A stretch of DNA of 64,000 nt. It comes from Paracoccus aerodenitrificans (lineage in GTDB: Bacteria; Pseudomonadota; Alphaproteobacteria; Rhodobacterales; Rhodobacteraceae). This document shows, one piece after another, positions 42,250 through 51,136 of the stretch. The notes under the pieces were generated by a model. The model was given only the letters and a program-made list of their open reading frames with translations. It was not told the DNA's origin and searched no databases. Made by a program: the position numbers and the translations under genes. The stretch spans positions 2,046,001 through 2,110,000 of the forward strand of contig NZ_CP115784.1 of NCBI RefSeq assembly GCF_027913215.1, written 5' to 3'. The first letter of the stretch is position 1; every line of letters starts with the position of its first letter.

Positions 42250-43860
42250 TCAGGACCCGCTCAATATCATATCCGCAGCTTTTTCGGCAATCATCACCAC
42301 CGGGGATGCCGTATTCCCCGACACGATCCTCGGCATAATCGAGGCGTCGACGACCCGCAACCCGTGCAACCCTTTCACACGCAGCATCGGATCAACAACG
42401 GCCTGATCGTCGCTGCCCATTCGGCATGTGCCGACCGGATGGAAAATCGTCGTGCCGATATTGCCGGCCTGTTCCAGCAGATCGGCATCGCTTTGGATCT
42501 CCGGGCCGGGCAGAATTTCCTCGGGCGAATAGGGTTTCAGTGCCTCGGCGGTCATGATCTCTCGAGCCTGCCGGATCGAGGTCACGGCGATGCGCTTATC
42601 CGCCTCTGCCGAAAGATAATTCAGCCGTATCTCGGGCTGTTCGTCCGGCTCGGGGGTGGTGATATGACAGCTTCCCCGACTTTCCGGGCGCAAATTGCAG
42701 ACCGAGACCGTAACGGCAGGAAAACCATGCAGCGGATCACCCAGCTTATCCGTCGAGAGCGGCTGCACATGATATTCCAGATCGGGCATGTCCAGCGCAG
42801 GATCGGATTTCGTGAACATGCCGAACTGGCTGGGTGCCATCGAAAGCGGGCCGCCTCGGTTCAGCGCATATTGCGCCGCCATTCTGGCTTTTCCCATCAG
42901 CGAATTGGCCAGAGTGTTCAGCGTAAGCGTGTTGCGCACCCTGAAAATCGTGCGCAATTGCAGATGATCCTGCAAATTCTCTCCGACCGAGGGAAGCGCA
43001 TGCTGAACCTTGATCCCCAGCCCCGTCAGCAGATCCGGGTTTCCGATGCCCGAATGCTCAAGCAATTTGGGCGAGTTGATCGCGCCGGCAGTCAGCAGGA
43101 CCTCACCGGCGAAAGCCTCGTGCAGCCTGTCCTTATGACGAAAACGGACGCCGCTGACCCGCTTGCCTTCCAGAATCAGTGCATCGGTCGGGGCATGGGT
43201 CAGAACCCGCAGATTTGGCCGCTTCATCGCCGGACGCAGAAAGCCCTTGGCAGTATTCCACCGCACGCCGTTTTTCTGGTTCACCTCGAAGAAGCCGGAA
43301 CCTTCATTATTCCCATCGTTGAAATCGGCACGAGGATGGATGCCGAATTCGGTTGCGCCCTGCTGCACCGCGCGAAGAATTTCCCATTCAAGCTTCTGGC
43401 GCGACACCTTCCACTCTCCGCCCGCGCCATGCAGATCGCTTTTCCCACCGTGATAATCCTCGGATTTCAGGAAATAGGGCAGAACATCCTTCCAGGCCCA
43501 TCCGGGATTTCCCAATTGACGCCAGAGATCATAATCGGTCGACTGCCCGCGCATATAGATCATGCCATTGACAGAGCTGCACCCACCCAGCACCTTACCC
43601 CGCGGATAGGTCAGGCTGCGCCCGTTCAGCCCCGGCTCAGCAGCCGTGCGCATCATCCAGTCGGTTCGGGGATTGCCGATGCAATAGAGATATCCGACGG
43701 GGATATGTATCCAGCGGTAATTATCCGAACCGCCAGCTTCCAGCAGCAGGACCTGTTTCTTCGGATCAGCACTCAGCCGATTTGCCAGCACACAGCCCGC
43801 CGTCCCGGCCCCAACGATAATGAAATCATATTTCTGGCCCGGAGGTATTTCGTGACTCAT
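42250..43860 (-). CDS. GMC family oxidoreductase (choline/alcohol dehydrogenase type)
   Basis: 536 residues from the ATG at 43860, with GGAGGA upstream. FAD-binding motif FIIVGAGTAGCVLANRLS near residue 12, GGSSSVNGMIYMRGQ in the middle (GMC signature 1 region), AGAINSPKLLEHSGIG (signature 2) and catalytic His in HPVGTCRMGSDDQAVVDP. This is a BetA/AlkJ-like subtype. The usual betI-betB partners are absent, so choline is not a safe substrate. It oxidises an alcohol, probably linked to the respiratory chain. The double-domain LysR gene lies 145 bp upstream on the same strand. Confidence 0.92.
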   Translation of the reverse strand: MSHEIPPGQKYDFIIVGAGTAGCVLANRLSADPKKQVLLLEAGGSDNYRWIHIPVGYLYCIGNPRTDWMMRTAAEPGLNGRSLTYPRGKVLGGCSSVNGMIYMRGQSTDYDLWRQLGNPGWAWKDVLPYFLKSEDYHGGKSDLHGAGGEWKVSRQKLEWEILRAVQQGATEFGIHPRADFNDGNNEGSGFFEVNQKNGVRWNTAKGFLRPAMKRPNLRVLTHAPTDALILEGKRVSGVRFRHKDRLHEAFAGEVLLTAGAINSPKLLEHSGIGNPDLLTGLGIKVQHALPSVGENLQDHLQLRTIFRVRNTLTLNTLANSLMGKARMAAQYALNRGGPLSMAPSQFGMFTKSDPALDMPDLEYHVQPLSTDKLGDPLHGFPAVTVSVCNLRPESRGSCHITTPEPDEQPEIRLNYLSAEADKRIAVTSIRQAREIMTAEALKPYSPEEILPGPEIQSDADLLEQAGNIGTTIFHPVGTCRMGSDDQAVVDPMLRVKGLHGLRVVDASIMPRIVSGNTASPVVMIAEKAADMILSGS

Positions 43861-43889
43861 CCTGATCCTCCCCGCCTGTTCCTTCAGCG

Positions 43890-43916
43890 CCATAAGATGT
43901 TGATAGCGCATTATGG
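43890..43916. promoter_or_regulatory. Inverted repeat upstream of the GMC oxidoreductase
   Basis: CCATAA (43890-43895) and TTATGG (43911-43916) are perfect complements 15 bp apart, 30 bp ahead of the oxidoreductase start. A LysR-type gene ends 89 bp further on. It could be its operator, but the dyad is short. Confidence 0.3.
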
Positions 43917-44005: not shown

Positions 44006-45172
44006 TCAGACGACGCTTACCGATGTTTGACGCAACATATCCAGAAACTCCTGCTGAGCGCCTGTCGGCTGCCATCCCGTGCGGATCGTAAGGCCAACGG
44101 GACGGTTGGAATCAGGTATGTCGATGGGGACGATTGCAAGCGCTTCGACTTTCGCCTCTGCCTCAGCCTGAAGCCGAGATAATGCGCCAAGATGATCGCT
44201 TCCCCGAAGCAGTTCGCGCAGCAGAGTAGCCGAGGAGGTCACGATCGCCTTCTGTTCACGATCCTCGCAGAGAATGGGTTCCAGATTGGACCAGATCTGC
44301 GTTCCCCGGCGCGGCACGACCCAAGGATAATCTGCTAGTTCCTCGGGGCTGACGCCATTGCGCGACAGGATGGGGTGGTCTTTTCGCGAGACGATCACGA
44401 CAGAATCGTCGAACAGGCGCTCTTGCTGAATATCGTCAGTAGCAGCCGCGGGCCGCAATGCGCCGATCAGCACGTCGATTTCGCCTCGCCGGAGCCCCGA
44501 CAGCAACTCATCGTAGCATCCATCCACGACTTCAAACTCAAAATCGGGCTGGGAGGAACGGAAACGCAGCATGGTTTCGGGCAGCAGGCTTGCCTGAGAC
44601 AAGGGCAGCGCACCGATGACGATACGTCCCCGCGCGCCGCCTGCCATTGCGGAAAGCTCGGCAGCGGCCTGATCTATCTCGGAAAAAGCCAGCCGCGCCG
44701 CATGGGCAAGTTGCCGCGCAGCGCGTGTTGCGATGAGGCCATGCGCCGTGCGTTCAAAGAAACGCATTCCGGCAGATTGTTCCAGCAGGCTGGTCGAGCG
44801 GTGAACGGTCGGCTGCGCCAATCCCAGCTTGCGGGCGGCCAGCGTGAAATTTTCCGTCTCGGTCACGGCGATCAGCGCCGTTAGCTGCGGCCGGGTCGCC
44901 TGAAACTTGATATTACGCGCCATATCCGACATGGCGGCATCCAGATGAGACAGAGCACGCTCGGTCCGCCGGGCAACGATATCACCAGCCCTTGTCAGAA
45001 AAATTCCCTGAGAGGTTCTTTCCAGCAGTGCTATGCCCGCCTCTTGCTCAAGCTTGTTCATCGCTTGCGTGACGGCAGGTTGCGAGACATGACACAGCTC
45101 AGCCGTGCGGGTCACCGAATGGGTGGCCGCAAGATGCTGGAACATGCGTAAATGGCGAATACTGGATTGCAA
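44006..45172 (-). CDS. LysR-type regulator with two winged-helix DNA-binding domains
   Basis: 388 residues from the TTG at 45172, which has a GGAGGA site 4 bases upstream. A longer frame from 45250 or 45223 has no ribosome site and would place the dyad at 45203 inside the gene. First LysR-type HTH: residues about 5-63 (LRMFQHLAATHSVTRTAEL, SQPAVTQAMNKLEQEAG). Second LysR-type HTH: residues about 95-153 (LTALIAVTETENFTLAARK, AQPTVHRSTSLLEQSAG, FERTAHGLIATRAARQL). Then the substrate-binding domain, about 182-388. Normal LysR proteins have one HTH and about 300 residues. Its target is unknown. The GMC gene downstream is a candidate. Confidence 0.92.
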   Translation of the reverse strand: MQSSIRHLRMFQHLAATHSVTRTAELCHVSQPAVTQAMNKLEQEAGIALLERTSQGIFLTRAGDIVARRTERALSHLDAAMSDMARNIKFQATRPQLTALIAVTETENFTLAARKLGLAQPTVHRSTSLLEQSAGMRFFERTAHGLIATRAARQLAHAARLAFSEIDQAAAELSAMAGGARGRIVIGALPLSQASLLPETMLRFRSSQPDFEFEVVDGCYDELLSGLRRGEIDVLIGALRPAAATDDIQQERLFDDSVVIVSRKDHPILSRNGVSPEELADYPWVVPRRGTQIWSNLEPILCEDREQKAIVTSSATLLRELLRGSDHLGALSRLQAEAEAKVEALAIVPIDIPDSNRPVGLTIRTGWQPTGAQQEFLDMLRQTSVSVV

Positions 45173-45498
45173 GATGTCCTCCGAATGAAGAACAGAATAG
45201 CTCTTTACCTTGCGTAAAGCCATGATTTTGTGAAACTTGATGGCAGACAATTTAGTTTATTTTTATGAGCTTGCGGATTTGGACGGTCGCGGCGGCTATT
45301 CGATCCGAATTAACGGGCGACAGCTAACGCCTATACTGAAACAGTCTGGATCCGGAATCGAAGGCTGCAAGAATGATGACAGTCGTCTCCTGCAGGATTC
45401 ACACATGGCTTATCCTCCAAGATCGAAAAACAGCGAAACCATGTCCCGCAAGCGGCCAGACCGTTCCCTTACCCGATGCCCGGCGATAAACAGCAACT
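45173..45498. other. Divergent intergenic region, LysR gene to ABC exporter
   Basis: 326 bp with no convincing gene. The part next to the LysR start holds the ribosome site and the CTTTAC dyad. 45230-45270 is AT-rich (AGTTTATTTTTATGAGC) and is the likely promoter zone. The rest up to 45498 has no clear motif. A 116-residue frame crossing this region has no ribosome site and no familiar motif, and I do not believe it. Confidence 0.5.
45203..45219. promoter_or_regulatory. LysR-type operator CTTTAC-N5-GTAAAG
   Basis: A perfect 6-bp dyad with a 5-bp centre, containing TTAC...GTAA as the T-N11-A core of LysR-type binding sites. It lies 31 bp upstream of the TTG start of the LysR gene, a usual place for an autoregulatory site. 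It also faces the divergent ABC exporter gene, 280 bp away. Confidence 0.55.
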
Positions 45499-48264: not shown

Positions 48265-49221
48265 TCAGCGCAATGCGATAGAGATGGGCTGGACGAAAGA
48301 CGCAGTCTGCCCGTTCGGCGGTGCCGGCATCCGGGGCAGACGCGCAGCCTGACGCGCAAGTGCGGCGTCTATCTGCGCATTCCCGGTTGAACTGACAAGC
48401 CTGCCAGAGGCGGAACCGTTCGCCGAAACCGTCACCGCCACCTGAATCGTCACGCTTCCGCCACCGCCGCCGCGAATACGGGTGCGTGACATATGGCGGG
48501 AAATCGCGGATCCGACGCGAGAACTCCAACTGGCCATCTGCTGCGGGGATGCAGCGGGATTTCCGGTCGTCTGGCGCTGACCGCCGCCACCTGCACCGCC
48601 CTGACGCCGCTGCGTCTGCTGCTGCGACTGTGCCGGAGCCTGACGCTGAGGGGCGGCCTGACGCTGTTGCGTGGGCTGCTGGCGCTGCGGCTCGGGTTGG
48701 CGTTGGGGTTCGGGCTGACGCTGCGGCTCACGACGGGGTTGCGGCTCGGGCTGCCGCCGCTCTGGCCGTGCTGTCGGACGTTCCGAGGTTTCAAGCAGCA
48801 ATGCTGACTGCGGCAACAGCTCGGCAAAATCGTTGATCGGAGGCAGTTCCGTCATCGGCGGCGCTTCGAAATCCGGCGCGGGCAGCGGTTCAGGCACCAG
48901 ATCGGCGAAATCCTCGACCGGGGGCAGTTCAGTCATTTCCGGCGGGGTGAAATCCGGCGCGGGGGGCGGGGCTTCTTCTTCCGCGACAGGCACCTCTTCC
49001 GCGAGCGCTTCCTCGGCGCCGGGCGCATCGTCTTCATTCGCCGGGCCCGGAGGCGGCTCCGGCATCACCATGTCGATAAAAACCGCCTCGGTCACGCCAA
49101 GCGCTTCGGCGCGTTGCGATGCCTGAATGAACCAGACGCCTGCCGCGACATGCGCCGCAAGCACCAGAAGACCGGCCCCGCCCCAGACAACCAGATCACG
49201 GGATGGACCGTCACCGGTCAT
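48265..49221 (-). CDS. tonB: TonB energy transducer
   Basis: 318 residues. One N-terminal membrane helix (about 10-32), a long periplasmic linker rich in Pro, Glu and then Gln/Arg (residues 55-210), and a C-terminal TonB domain (about 233-318: SRVGSAISRHM, VTIQVAVTVSANGSASGRLV, ALARQAARLP). A 22-residue unit is repeated at 89-110 and 116-137 (MTELPPVEDFADLVP, MTELPPINDFAELLP). It couples the ExbB-ExbD proton motor to outer-membrane receptors. Its start overlaps exbD by 4 bp. Confidence 0.93.
   Translation of the reverse strand: MTGDGPSRDLVVWGGAGLLVLAAHVAAGVWFIQASQRAEALGVTEAVFIDMVMPEPPPGPANEDDAPGAEEALAEEVPVAEEEAPPPAPDFTPPEMTELPPVEDFADLVPEPLPAPDFEAPPMTELPPINDFAELLPQSALLLETSERPTARPERRQPEPQPRREPQRQPEPQRQPEPQRQQPTQQRQAAPQRQAPAQSQQQTQRRQGGAGGGGQRQTTGNPAASPQQMASWSSRVGSAISRHMSRTRIRGGGGGSVTIQVAVTVSANGSASGRLVSSTGNAQIDAALARQAARLPRMPAPPNGQTASFVQPISIALR
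48811..48957 (-). repeat. Tandem duplication inside tonB
   Basis: Codons 89-110 and 116-137 of tonB code for near-identical 22-residue units (15 to 16 identical positions by eye), 27 residues apart. They lie in the extended periplasmic linker, so length change would be tolerated. Confidence 0.8.
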
Positions 49222-49721
49222 TGCGCAGCCTCCTCCGCGGCAGGTGCAGAAGCGGTAACCGGCGCGGCTGCACCATCTGCCTGCGCGGCATCGGCAGCAG
49301 CGCCTGCGGTGTTCCCGTCCATGCCGACAAGCGCGATCTTGGTATAAGCCGCGTCGCGCATGCTGTTCATGACATCCATGACCTCGCCATAGCTGACCGA
49401 TTTATCGGCACGCAGAAAGATCCGCGTTTCCCGGTCCCCATCGGTCCCCGCTTCCAGAGATTGCCGCAACTGGCCCGGCGGAACCGGCTCATTCCCAAGC
49501 GTCATCGTCAGATCGGACGAAACGGTCAGCCAGACCGGCTCATCCGGGCGCTCAGAGGCCGAACCGCGCGAGGTCGGCAGATCGACATTGATATCGACAG
49601 TCGCCAGCGGCGCTGCCACCATGAAGATGATCAGCAGCACCAGCATCACGTCAATGAAAGGCGTCACGTTGATTTCGTGATTTTCCTCCAGCGAGTCGCC
49701 TTCCTGCATCCGGCCTGCCAT
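49218..49721 (-). CDS. exbD: Biopolymer transport protein ExbD
   Basis: 167 residues. One membrane helix (about 20-40) with the conserved aspartate D24 in the VTPFIDVMLVLLIIFMVAAP motif that carries protons. The periplasmic domain contains VDINVDLPTSRG and IFLRADKSVSYGEVMDVMNSMRDAAYTKIALVG. The last 40 residues are Ala-rich and unlike most ExbD proteins. The start is 2 bp from the exbB stop. The order exbB-exbD-tonB is a standard iron-transport energy operon. Confidence 0.95.
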   Translation of the reverse strand: MAGRMQEGDSLEENHEINVTPFIDVMLVLLIIFMVAAPLATVDINVDLPTSRGSASERPDEPVWLTVSSDLTMTLGNEPVPPGQLRQSLEAGTDGDRETRIFLRADKSVSYGEVMDVMNSMRDAAYTKIALVGMDGNTAGAAADAAQADGAAAPVTASAPAAEEAAQ

Positions 49722-49722
49722 G

Positions 49723-50802
49723 TCAGATCCTCCGGGTTTCGGCGAAGTCTATGTCGCGGCTGACCAGACGTTCGATCCCCGCTGCGGCCTCGGAAAGACG
49801 CATGCGGTATCCGGTGATCATCCGCGCGAAGTAGTTATAGATCACCACCGCCGGAATAGCGGCAACCAGACCGAGAGCCGTCGCCAGCAACGCCTCGGCA
49901 ATCCCCGGCGCAACCACGGCAAGATTCGTCGTCTGCGATTCCGAGATGCCGATAAAGCTGTTCATGATCCCCCATACCGTACCGAACAGGCCGACAAAGG
50001 GCGCGGTCGAGCCAATCGTCGCCAGCAGGCCCGTACCGCTTCCCGCCTGACGCCCGGCGAAGGAAACGATGCTGGACAGATAGGACGAAATCCGCTCTTT
50101 CAGCCCGTCAGTGCCCGAATTCGCCAAAGCGGGCGAGGATCGCCCGATCTCGATCGAGGCAGCACGCAGCATCCGGCTGGCCGGGTCACGGCGGCCTGCA
50201 CTGGCGGCAACCGCAGAATCAAGATCACGCGCTCGGGCGATCAGATCGGCGCTGCGGCGTGCATTGCGGTTCGCGCCCCAGATCTCAAGCAGCTTCACCA
50301 GCAGGATGGTCCATGTCACGACCGAGGCGAATGCCAGCCCTATCATGACCGATTTGACCACAATATCGGCGGCCATGAACATGCCCCACGGGGACAGATC
50401 ATGCGGCAGCGTGTTCTCGGCAGGAGCGAGTTCCGTCACAACAGAAGGAACCTCACCGACCGGCTCTGCCTCATCCGCCACCGTCGCGCTTGCGCCTGCC
50501 TGTGTATCTGTGTCCGCCGCAGCGGTCTCTGCCGCCCCTGTCGTCGGTTCACCAACACCCGCCGCTGGCTGCGCCGTATCTGTGGCAGGCTGCGCCGCAT
50601 CGGATGCCGTTTCGGCGGCGCTTGGCGCCGGTTCCGCAGCGCCGGTCTGCGCAGTCGTGGCCGCCGGAGCGGTTTCGGCTTCTGCGGCTTCCGTACTGCT
50701 CTGATCGGGCTGCACGGATTGCGACCATGCCATGCCCGAGGCCCCCAGAGAAACTGCGACACACGCGGCCAGTGCGGTGCGGCGGATTAAGAATTGCGAC
50801 AT
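49723..50802 (-). CDS. exbB: ExbB with long N-terminal periplasmic extension
   Basis: 359 residues from the ATG at 50802. A signal peptide covers about residues 1-28 ([19 protein letters not shown]). Residues 29-120 are an Ala/Thr/Glu-rich segment. The MotA/TolQ/ExbB proton channel domain starts near residue 140 ([15 protein letters not shown]) with the family core [30 protein letters not shown] and [19 protein letters not shown]. The extension is found in other alphaproteobacterial ExbB proteins, and its role is unknown. The gene starts the exbB-exbD-tonB unit. Confidence 0.93.
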
Positions 50803-51136
50803 GAGGAACTCGCTTGGCTGTGTAAAATCGACCCGAATGGAGGGTTGCTGCGCATATTTCAAATCCGAGTATTACTGTCAACATACGTTGGAAAGATGCA
50901 AGAGTTTGCCATCCGATAGCTTTCCGAACGTCATCTGCAGGCAACACGCACAACCCTGAGCAGAGGCTCATTTCGGGAGGGGTGCGATATACGCGCGGCA
51001 CTTGCGGAATGTGCACCCCGAAAGGCAAAAATGTGTGAAAATCCGCGCATTATGCCCCATACAAAACAGGGTTTCTTGCCGTTGCCCCGGCAATCACATA
51101 ACAGTCGCATGTCAACTTCTACCCGGATCCTCACGC
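50803..51136. other. Divergent intergenic region between exbB and opgG
   Basis: 334 bp without a gene. Two hairpin-like elements are visible: GGGGTGC (50979-50985) with GCACCCC (51013-51019), extended by TTTCG/CGAAA across a 3-base bulge; and TTGCCG-N6-CGGCAA at 51076-51087 to about 51093. I find no clear Fur, Irr or RirA site. The AT-rich part near exbB (GAGTATTACTGTCAACATACG) is the likely promoter area. Confidence 0.45.

Follow-up and report, generated by a model that had tools for sequence, protein, structure and literature searches.

A two-headed LysR-type regulator of the GalR family, probably orphaned from the gal genes, in Paracoccus aerodenitrificans

The Paracoccus aerodenitrificans window analysed here (64,000 nucleotides; contig NZ_CP115784.1, positions 2,046,001 to 2,110,000) encodes a LysR-type transcriptional regulator with two different winged-helix heads in front of a single substrate-binding domain (SBD). 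Its homologues place it in a family spread widely among Proteobacteria, that of the gallate-pathway regulator GalR, in which the double head is the rule. We consider it probable (roughly 0.6) that the window protein is an orphaned GalR, that dimers of its family clamp a two-part operator, and that this particular copy has been recruited to another signal and other targets. Each GalR-family chain carries two unlike heads for reading DNA, both with a linker behind them, ahead of one effector domain; in the mechanism that we propose, a dimer would therefore present four heads. Such a dimer would clamp, at fixed spacing, a TAGC-N6-TTAT dyad and, 14 bp further on, a TTNNNNWTTG block that may touch the promoter -35 box, and would do there what an ordinary LysR tetramer does on its RBS and ABS. 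Binding of oxalomesaconate would then switch on galB and the transport genes. In the window protein, the heads are kept and the putative effector cleft is altered, and the regulator would have been recruited elsewhere.

The regulator gene is read from the minus strand (Table 1), where its frame runs open as far as position 45250; the plus-strand reading of the same interval contains four stops. The TTG start aligns with an ATG, GTG or TTG in 11 aligned relatives. Pfam reports HTH_1 in two stretches of the protein, not in one only, and a single LysR_substrate domain; the protein as a whole scores 106.4 bits for HTH_1 (cutoff 26.6), and LysR_substrate scores 115.2 bits. This bears out the sequence-only reading of two genuine LysR heads joined to one sensor. 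The protein thus has the traits of the LysR superfamily, an N-terminal HTH_1 and a C-terminal LysR substrate-binding domain, but departs from the usual layout of exactly one head per chain, and we treat the two-headed layout as a variant inside the superfamily. By analogy with other LysR proteins, the first linker stretch would have a helix role. The two heads are identical at only 19 of 60 positions in the best of ten registers tried. In a weakly resolved tree of heads (80 columns, 21 of 62 forks open), the 20 first heads (HTH1) of the family cluster together, with one long-branched single-head row among them, and the 20 second heads (HTH2) split into two groups. Recent internal duplication of the head is not supported by this degree of identity and tree placement, as the sequence-only reading had already concluded from the divergence of the two units.

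Table 1. Features of the regulator and its surroundings (positions in the window)
Feature	Position	Strand	Basis
Tandem-head LysR-type regulator, GalR family, 388 aa, TTG start	44006..45172	minus	ORF, Pfam, homologues
Shine-Dalgarno-like GGAGGA before TTG start	45177..45182	minus	sequence
HTH1, first winged-helix head, residues 5-63	44984..45160	minus	Pfam HTH_1; Q31, T35 in 359/359
First linker stretch, residues 64-94	44891..44983	minus	lowest conservation in the protein
HTH2, second winged-helix head, residues 95-153	44714..44890	minus	Pfam HTH_1, second stretch
Second linker stretch, residues 154-178	44639..44713	minus	alignment
Single SBD, residues 179-388	44009..44638	minus	Pfam LysR_substrate
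Residue 193, putative effector cleft, Gln here, Arg in 355/359	44594..44596	minus	alignment
Residues 292-294, Gln-Ile-Trp here, Pro-x-Arg in family	44291..44299	minus	alignment
Dyad CTTTAC-N5-GTAAAG upstream of regulator	45203..45219	.	sequence; not conserved in kin
GMC oxidoreductase, 94 bp downstream of regulator	42250-43911	minus	Pfam
TonB-like, ExbD and ExbB genes, syntenic landmark	48265..50862	minus	Pfam TonB_2, ExbD, MotA_ExbB

A search with the window protein returned 1316 matches at E <= 0.001; the top 120, with the window protein counted among them, span 96-100% of the query and are 374-411 aa long. Likewise, the best 120 of the 1553 matches to a Pantoea member and of the 1187 matches to a Pseudomonas member are similar in length and architecture. 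The recurrence of the same length and architecture in the best 120 rows of each of the three homologue lists refutes the reading of the gene as two LysR genes joined by a sequencing frameshift or by faulty gene calling, an artefact against which the sequence-only reading had cautioned and to which we now attach a negligible probability. Its proposed search for other proteins of the same layout was fruitful, with two HTH_1 stretches in all 9 chosen tandem relatives, as opposed to one in the single-headed control (L090); another copy from a genome without gal genes (L031) also has two. Aligned members are homologous to the window protein from end to end, both heads included, at 27-66% identity. 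The layout, first taken to be exceptional among LysR proteins, turns out instead to be the norm of a large known regulator family. Among the titles and abstract openings listed from the open-access (non-subscription) literature, none describes a two-headed LysR protein, and the passages containing the words sought concern other families or single-headed proteins.

In Alphaproteobacteria, 46 of 385 genomes match the family profile at E <= 1e-50, with at most four candidates scored per genome; by reading of the rows, the copy is matched from the first head on in 14 of the 46, and in the others the match starts only at model position 52-96, as it does in single-head relatives. Within Paracoccus, a member is present in 26 of 125 genomes at E <= 1e-60. 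A scan of genome contigs with a single protein gave only two partial, distant matches. The best-scoring single-head relative (G252:C13, locus L130) reaches 318 bits against the family profile; no second head was seen in frame upstream of it, and by eye it has Arg at the apparent equivalents of R193 and R294. This protein may be similar to the ancestral form that preceded the gain of a second head.

Conservation was assessed in 359 of the 360 listed family proteins, one of 276 aa being left out by length. The HTH1 recognition-helix residues Q31 and T35 are kept throughout, and in HTH2 Q120 is found in 358 and P121 in 353 of the 359. This bears on the possibility that HTH1 no longer reads DNA and, together with its linker, forms an extra dimer or tetramer contact, HTH2 alone reading an ordinary LysR operator. 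Such a division of labor would agree with the fact that both the single-head relatives and the solved LysR chains that score best match the protein over HTH2 and the SBD, with the first linker being the least conserved stretch both in the 120 nearest and in all 359 proteins, and with the better conservation of HTH2 than of HTH1 in the 120 nearest (mean column entropy 0.79 vs 1.07). Over the 359 proteins, however, the two heads are about equally conserved (1.41 for HTH1 and 1.36 for HTH2; 1.65 for the SBD), and HTH1 is retained in all six other Paracoccus copies that have an intact frame and lack gal genes (G008, G444, G469, G015, G030 and G456; see below). We regard this possibility as unlikely, and the oligomerisation-only role that the sequence-only reading had considered for one head is disfavored by its invariant recognition-helix residues.

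In passages of two published studies, GalR is described as a LysR-type activator of galBCD whose effector is oxalomesaconate (PMC9942251; PMC12314914); induction by 4-oxalomesaconate has been published for the P. putida protein (PMC9942251) and for that of Pseudomonas sp. NGC7 (PMC12314914). The same sources describe a GalR RBS-like sequence, ATAAGTAAAAAGTAT, and, upstream of galB, a conserved stretch of nearly 40 nt. The words HTH, helix-turn-helix and domain are absent from the main text of PMC9942251, as is the word HTH from that of PMC12314914.

The gene neighborhoods agree with assignment to this family. From 19 plasmid loci picked for spread, 16 were left after two single-head controls and one unannotated record had been omitted. 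A 4-carboxy-4-hydroxy-2-oxoadipate aldolase is annotated nearby in 8 of these 16, in most cases with a 4-oxalomesaconate tautomerase or hydratase. In another two loci, a PIG-L gene adjoins a gene for a VOC protein or catechol 2,3-dioxygenase, a pair that belongs to the cluster of one aldolase-bearing locus, and one further locus has protocatechuate 4,5-dioxygenase genes. The other five annotated relatives are without an oxalomesaconate-pathway gene nearby, and two of them have amidohydrolases. In Pseudomonas oryzihabitans, the two-headed regulator is divergent from galB-galC-galD in a complete gal region that also holds a gallate dioxygenase, an aromatic-acid MFS transporter and an OprD porin; similarly, galBCD adjoins the two-headed gene of the Pantoea relative. 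Pfam assignments support the labeling of the Paracoccus neighbors as galB (PIG-L), galC (RraA-like aldolase), galD (PrpF) and a TRAP binding protein (DctP).

Alignment of the DNA before galB in 19 alphaproteobacterial loci revealed a two-part element of 38 bp with nearly fixed spacing, namely TAGC-N6-TTAT, 14 bp, and TTNNNNWTTG. The pattern TAGC-N6-TTAT-N11..17-TT-N4-W-TTG was found 37 times in the 1.10 Mb of DNA examined, a count in which overlapping loci recur and which includes part of the DNA used to derive the pattern, and never in five shuffled sets; the spacer was 14 in 33 of these matches and 13 in 4. As a broader test, whole genomes, which contain the same loci, were searched with spacers of 13 or 14 allowed. 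The operator was present in 16 of the 18 Paracoccus genomes that have both the regulator and gal genes, in none of the 8 that have the regulator but not the gal genes, and in 2 of 26 control genomes without the regulator; the reversed pattern gave no match in the 52 genomes. All 24 sites in regulator-bearing genomes have the 14-bp spacer, although 13 was also allowed. The two gal-bearing Paracoccus genomes without an exact operator are G443 and G474. In the latter (locus L087), the copy is broken: the two-headed regulator, which adjoins galC/galD-type genes, can be followed no further than about residue 227, and transporter-like sequence then continues in another frame (by eye). The two matches in control genomes, both of them Paracoccus (G006:C3:13409-13446 and G012:C86:9400-9437), occur once each and are nearly the same in sequence.

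Base counts over 28 unique 14-spaced sites, compiled without the 13-spaced sites and the two control-genome matches, show a preference outside the fixed letters for A at position 8 and C at position 10 of the first block. In the second block, position 31 favors C and position 33 favors G or A, and position 34 is A in 27 of the 28. The final TTG may partly coincide with the promoter -35 box. Weaker mirror copies of the operator precede the divergent TRAP operon: in a weight matrix to which the galB sites of L032 and L091 contribute (scores 44.6 and 43.7), two mirror copies outside the matrix score 23.9 and 23.5. The first block has no match in five loci with gal-type genes from beta- or gammaproteobacteria or distant alphaproteobacteria (L023, L026, L029, L030 and L088), nor in L021 and L025. 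By eye, L023 has a 13-spaced variant of the operator, and the gammaproteobacterial galB promoters of L026 and L088, while giving no pattern match, contain sequences like the published RBS.

The extended operator that the sequence-only reading had suggested thus becomes plausible, as relatives have a 38-bp two-part element of nearly fixed spacing. Two unlike heads fit two unlike blocks, and each head would then read one of them. By itself, a two-part operator is no proof that DNA is contacted by both heads, because single-head LysR proteins also use RBS and ABS. The main alternative is that the element is an ordinary RBS/ABS pair occupied by a tetramer, in which the extra heads raise affinity or bridge distant sites by looping. 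In the classical LysR model, as outlined in passages of PMC12609908, a tetramer occupies RBS and ABS and a dimer slides on the ABS, and RBS and ABS are the terms in which PMC9942251 interprets the P. putida GalR site; moreover, the mirror copies before the TRAP operon would suit bridging. However, the blocks differ in sequence and their spacer is nearly fixed, features that are hard to account for with a single kind of head, and we find the tetramer alternative somewhat unlikely.

Searches of the window genome (G000; 3.56 Mb, 99.98% complete) for GalC and GalD found neither. Among the 26 Paracoccus genomes with the regulator, 18 have galC (76-100% identity) and galD (72-100%) on the regulator's contig within about 11 kb, the 100% rows being the queries themselves; more distant paralogues (26-55% identity), present in many of the genomes, were left out of this count. 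The eight genomes with the regulator but without galC/galD are G000, G008, G444, G469, G015, G030, G497 and G456. In the gal-bearing genomes G494 and G431, a tonB-exbD-exbB block is found 13.0 and 8.6 kb from the regulator, respectively, and the intervening DNA carries the gal and TRAP genes. In the window and in G008, G015, G444 and G469, the distance from the regulator to this block is 0.7 to 9 kb, with no gal gene found between them. Gene order thus suggests that the absence of gal genes from the window is explained by a missing gal/TRAP interval between the regulator and the tonB-exbD-exbB block; the block was not seen in the fetched DNA of G030 and of gal-bearing G465. In the regulator tree, from which the broken copies of G474 and G497 and the class-wide G211, G280, G153, G418, G106 and G252 were left out, gal-less G008 groups with gal-bearing G494 (support 99/97) and gal-less G030 with gal-bearing G431 (97/90). 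Because gal-less copies interleave with gal-bearing ones in this tree, several separate losses of the gal genes in Paracoccus appear likelier than one; gains are the alternative.

Operators were likewise sought in the window genome, where the exact pattern has no match. With one mismatch allowed, there are two matches in G000 and one each in G015 and G469, and none in G008, G444 and G030; the reversed control gives one match (in G015) across nine genomes. In the window itself, the best weight-matrix score is 5.6, inside the range of 20 shuffles (2.0-18.9). Diverged operators would escape this matrix, as it misses the 13-spaced L023 variant (score 1.0).

The changes in the protein itself are concentrated outside the heads. 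At columns conserved to at least 93% in gal-bearing Paracoccus (G443, G456 and outgroup rows left out), the window protein differs at 1 of 22 in HTH1 and 0 of 28 in HTH2; the second linker has 3 differences in 12 such columns and the SBD has 12 in 66. Pooled over six gal-less regulators, 63 of 396 SBD cells differ; for the three nearest gal-bearing kin, the only ones taken into the comparison, the count is 9 of 202 (Fisher p 3e-5, in a test that ignores ancestry); for the heads, the corresponding counts of 8/300 and 3/152 show no difference (p 0.76). The SBD trend in gal-less copies is not clean, since drift is uneven: gal-less G444 has only 2 changes in 66, and among more distant gal-bearing copies G500 has 11 in 71 and G424 and G024 have six each.

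Three near-invariant residues of the putative effector cleft are altered in the window protein. P292 is found in 356 and R294 in 358 of the 359 family proteins, the window protein being the sole exception at 294; R193 is also lost in three others of the 359, and two plasmid relatives outside that set lack it as well. In alignment to OxyR chains, P292 stands opposite a cysteine in one chain and a serine in another, at the position that we take to be that of the peroxidatic cysteine of the effector pocket. Since the alignment places P292 at this pocket position, we read R193Q, P292Q and R294W as probable loss or change of the old effector, and the window protein as a GalR that would have been released from oxalomesaconate sensing. 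With gal genes and operator not found, heads conserved and cleft changed, recruitment to another signal and other targets seems the most likely outcome.

Orphaned copies can also decay. The regulator of G497 (locus L080, no galC) is a remnant without HTH1 and with an in-frame TGA, and the altered cleft residues of the window copy could be seen in the same light, as those of a functionless leftover after gal loss. Against this, the window gene has a full-length open frame and a good ribosome site, its head columns are kept at 49 of 50 while the SBD has moved, and six other gal-less Paracoccus genomes have open-frame copies. We therefore hold simple decay of the window copy to be quite improbable and retain the reading of a recruited regulator.

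For such a regulator, the window offers candidate sites and targets. The dyad upstream of the gene, proposed in the sequence-only reading as an operator, is real and may possibly be an autoregulatory site; as a conserved family operator it is not supported, as it is in none of the seven relatives whose upstream DNA was read (these have other dyads or none; L031, for example, has a different one there), and by our estimate its occurrence is near chance expectation. By eye, four gal-less copies have part of AATCATGG-NN-TTAC before the gene in common, and gal-bearing G431 resembles it more faintly, a likeness too slight to build on. The adjacent GMC oxidoreductase gene, to which the sequence-only reading had linked the regulator, had to be rejected as a conserved partner: it was not found at this place in the relatives examined, and in tblastn it has two partial matches in 33 related stretches, one in G424 and one in G037, a genome from another family, both at a distance of about 6 kb from the regulator. 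In the reference set of the gene-order scan, its place was taken by a longer opposite-strand frame. It is best regarded as a candidate lineage-specific target. On a Croceicoccus marinus plasmid (L127), a family member lies near aldehyde dehydrogenase and GMC genes, not gal genes, with the GMC gene two genes away; the presence of a GMC gene near the regulator both there and in the window is possibly a coincidence.

More tentatively, and as a possibility that we would rate below an even chance, GalR-family proteins could be viewed as half-tetramers whose two heads on two blocks 14 bp apart let a dimer stand in for the LysR tetramer, a module that would have been freed repeatedly in Paracoccus by deletion of the gal regulon, with heads kept and sensor rewired. 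LysR proteins are among the commonest bacterial regulators, and, if this holds, a natural family that joins two heads in each chain to an operator of two rigidly spaced parts would let LysR geometry be tested with a dimer. There is also relevance for design, as GalR already serves in gallic-acid biosensors, according to a passage of PMC9942251. The orphaned copies amount to a small natural experiment in which a regulator outlives its regulon, the heads conserved and the sensor changed.

Among known systems, GalR of Pseudomonas is closest. The P. oryzihabitans protein encoded beside galBCD and gallate dioxygenase belongs to the same family, with two HTH_1 stretches and LysR_substrate, and many Pseudomonas hold homologues of about 400 aa, several of them named regulator of gallate degradation (in the best 120 of 1187 matches). 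The KT2440 GalR was not found by name among the matches listed, so that its two heads are inferred from its Pseudomonas relatives. In contrast to these proteins, the window copy is without galC, galD and an exact operator in its genome and has lost the three near-invariant cleft residues. The fldY product of Sphingobium likewise has two HTH_1 stretches and is encoded beside an aldolase (fldZ) and a 4-oxalomesaconate hydratase gene, with an operator-like sequence upstream whose first block is altered (by eye), but is only 35% identical to the window protein.

Single-head LysR proteins resemble the second half of the chain. The best NCBIfam match is TIGR02424 (PcaQ), at 207.1 bits with the best stretch over HTH2 and the SBD, which is far below the curated cutoff of 303.8, so the window protein is not a PcaQ by this model. 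PcaQ carries one head, and the likeness of PcaQ-kind proteins to the window protein lies over HTH2 and the SBD. Similarly, HTH2 and the SBD align with TsaR (3fxq), OxyR (6g1d) and a CbbR-type protein (5y2v) over nearly the whole length of these chains. Among the best 60 of 63 matched PDB sequences, all of at most 332 aa, none has the two-headed layout. CutR, a LysR activator that works as a dimer, is a precedent for the proposed GalR dimer but, as described in passages of PMC12609908, has one head per chain (34 kDa) and binds one inverted repeat. Passages on the AraC/XylS regulators (PMC6018408; PMC4486848) offer an analogue in the way of working: two helix-turn-helix units per chain lie on adjacent DNA grooves, and one unit can instead meet RNA polymerase. 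The AraC/XylS proteins differ from the GalR family in their unrelated fold, other domain order and lack of wings, and the likeness that we draw is one of function, with no claim of membership.
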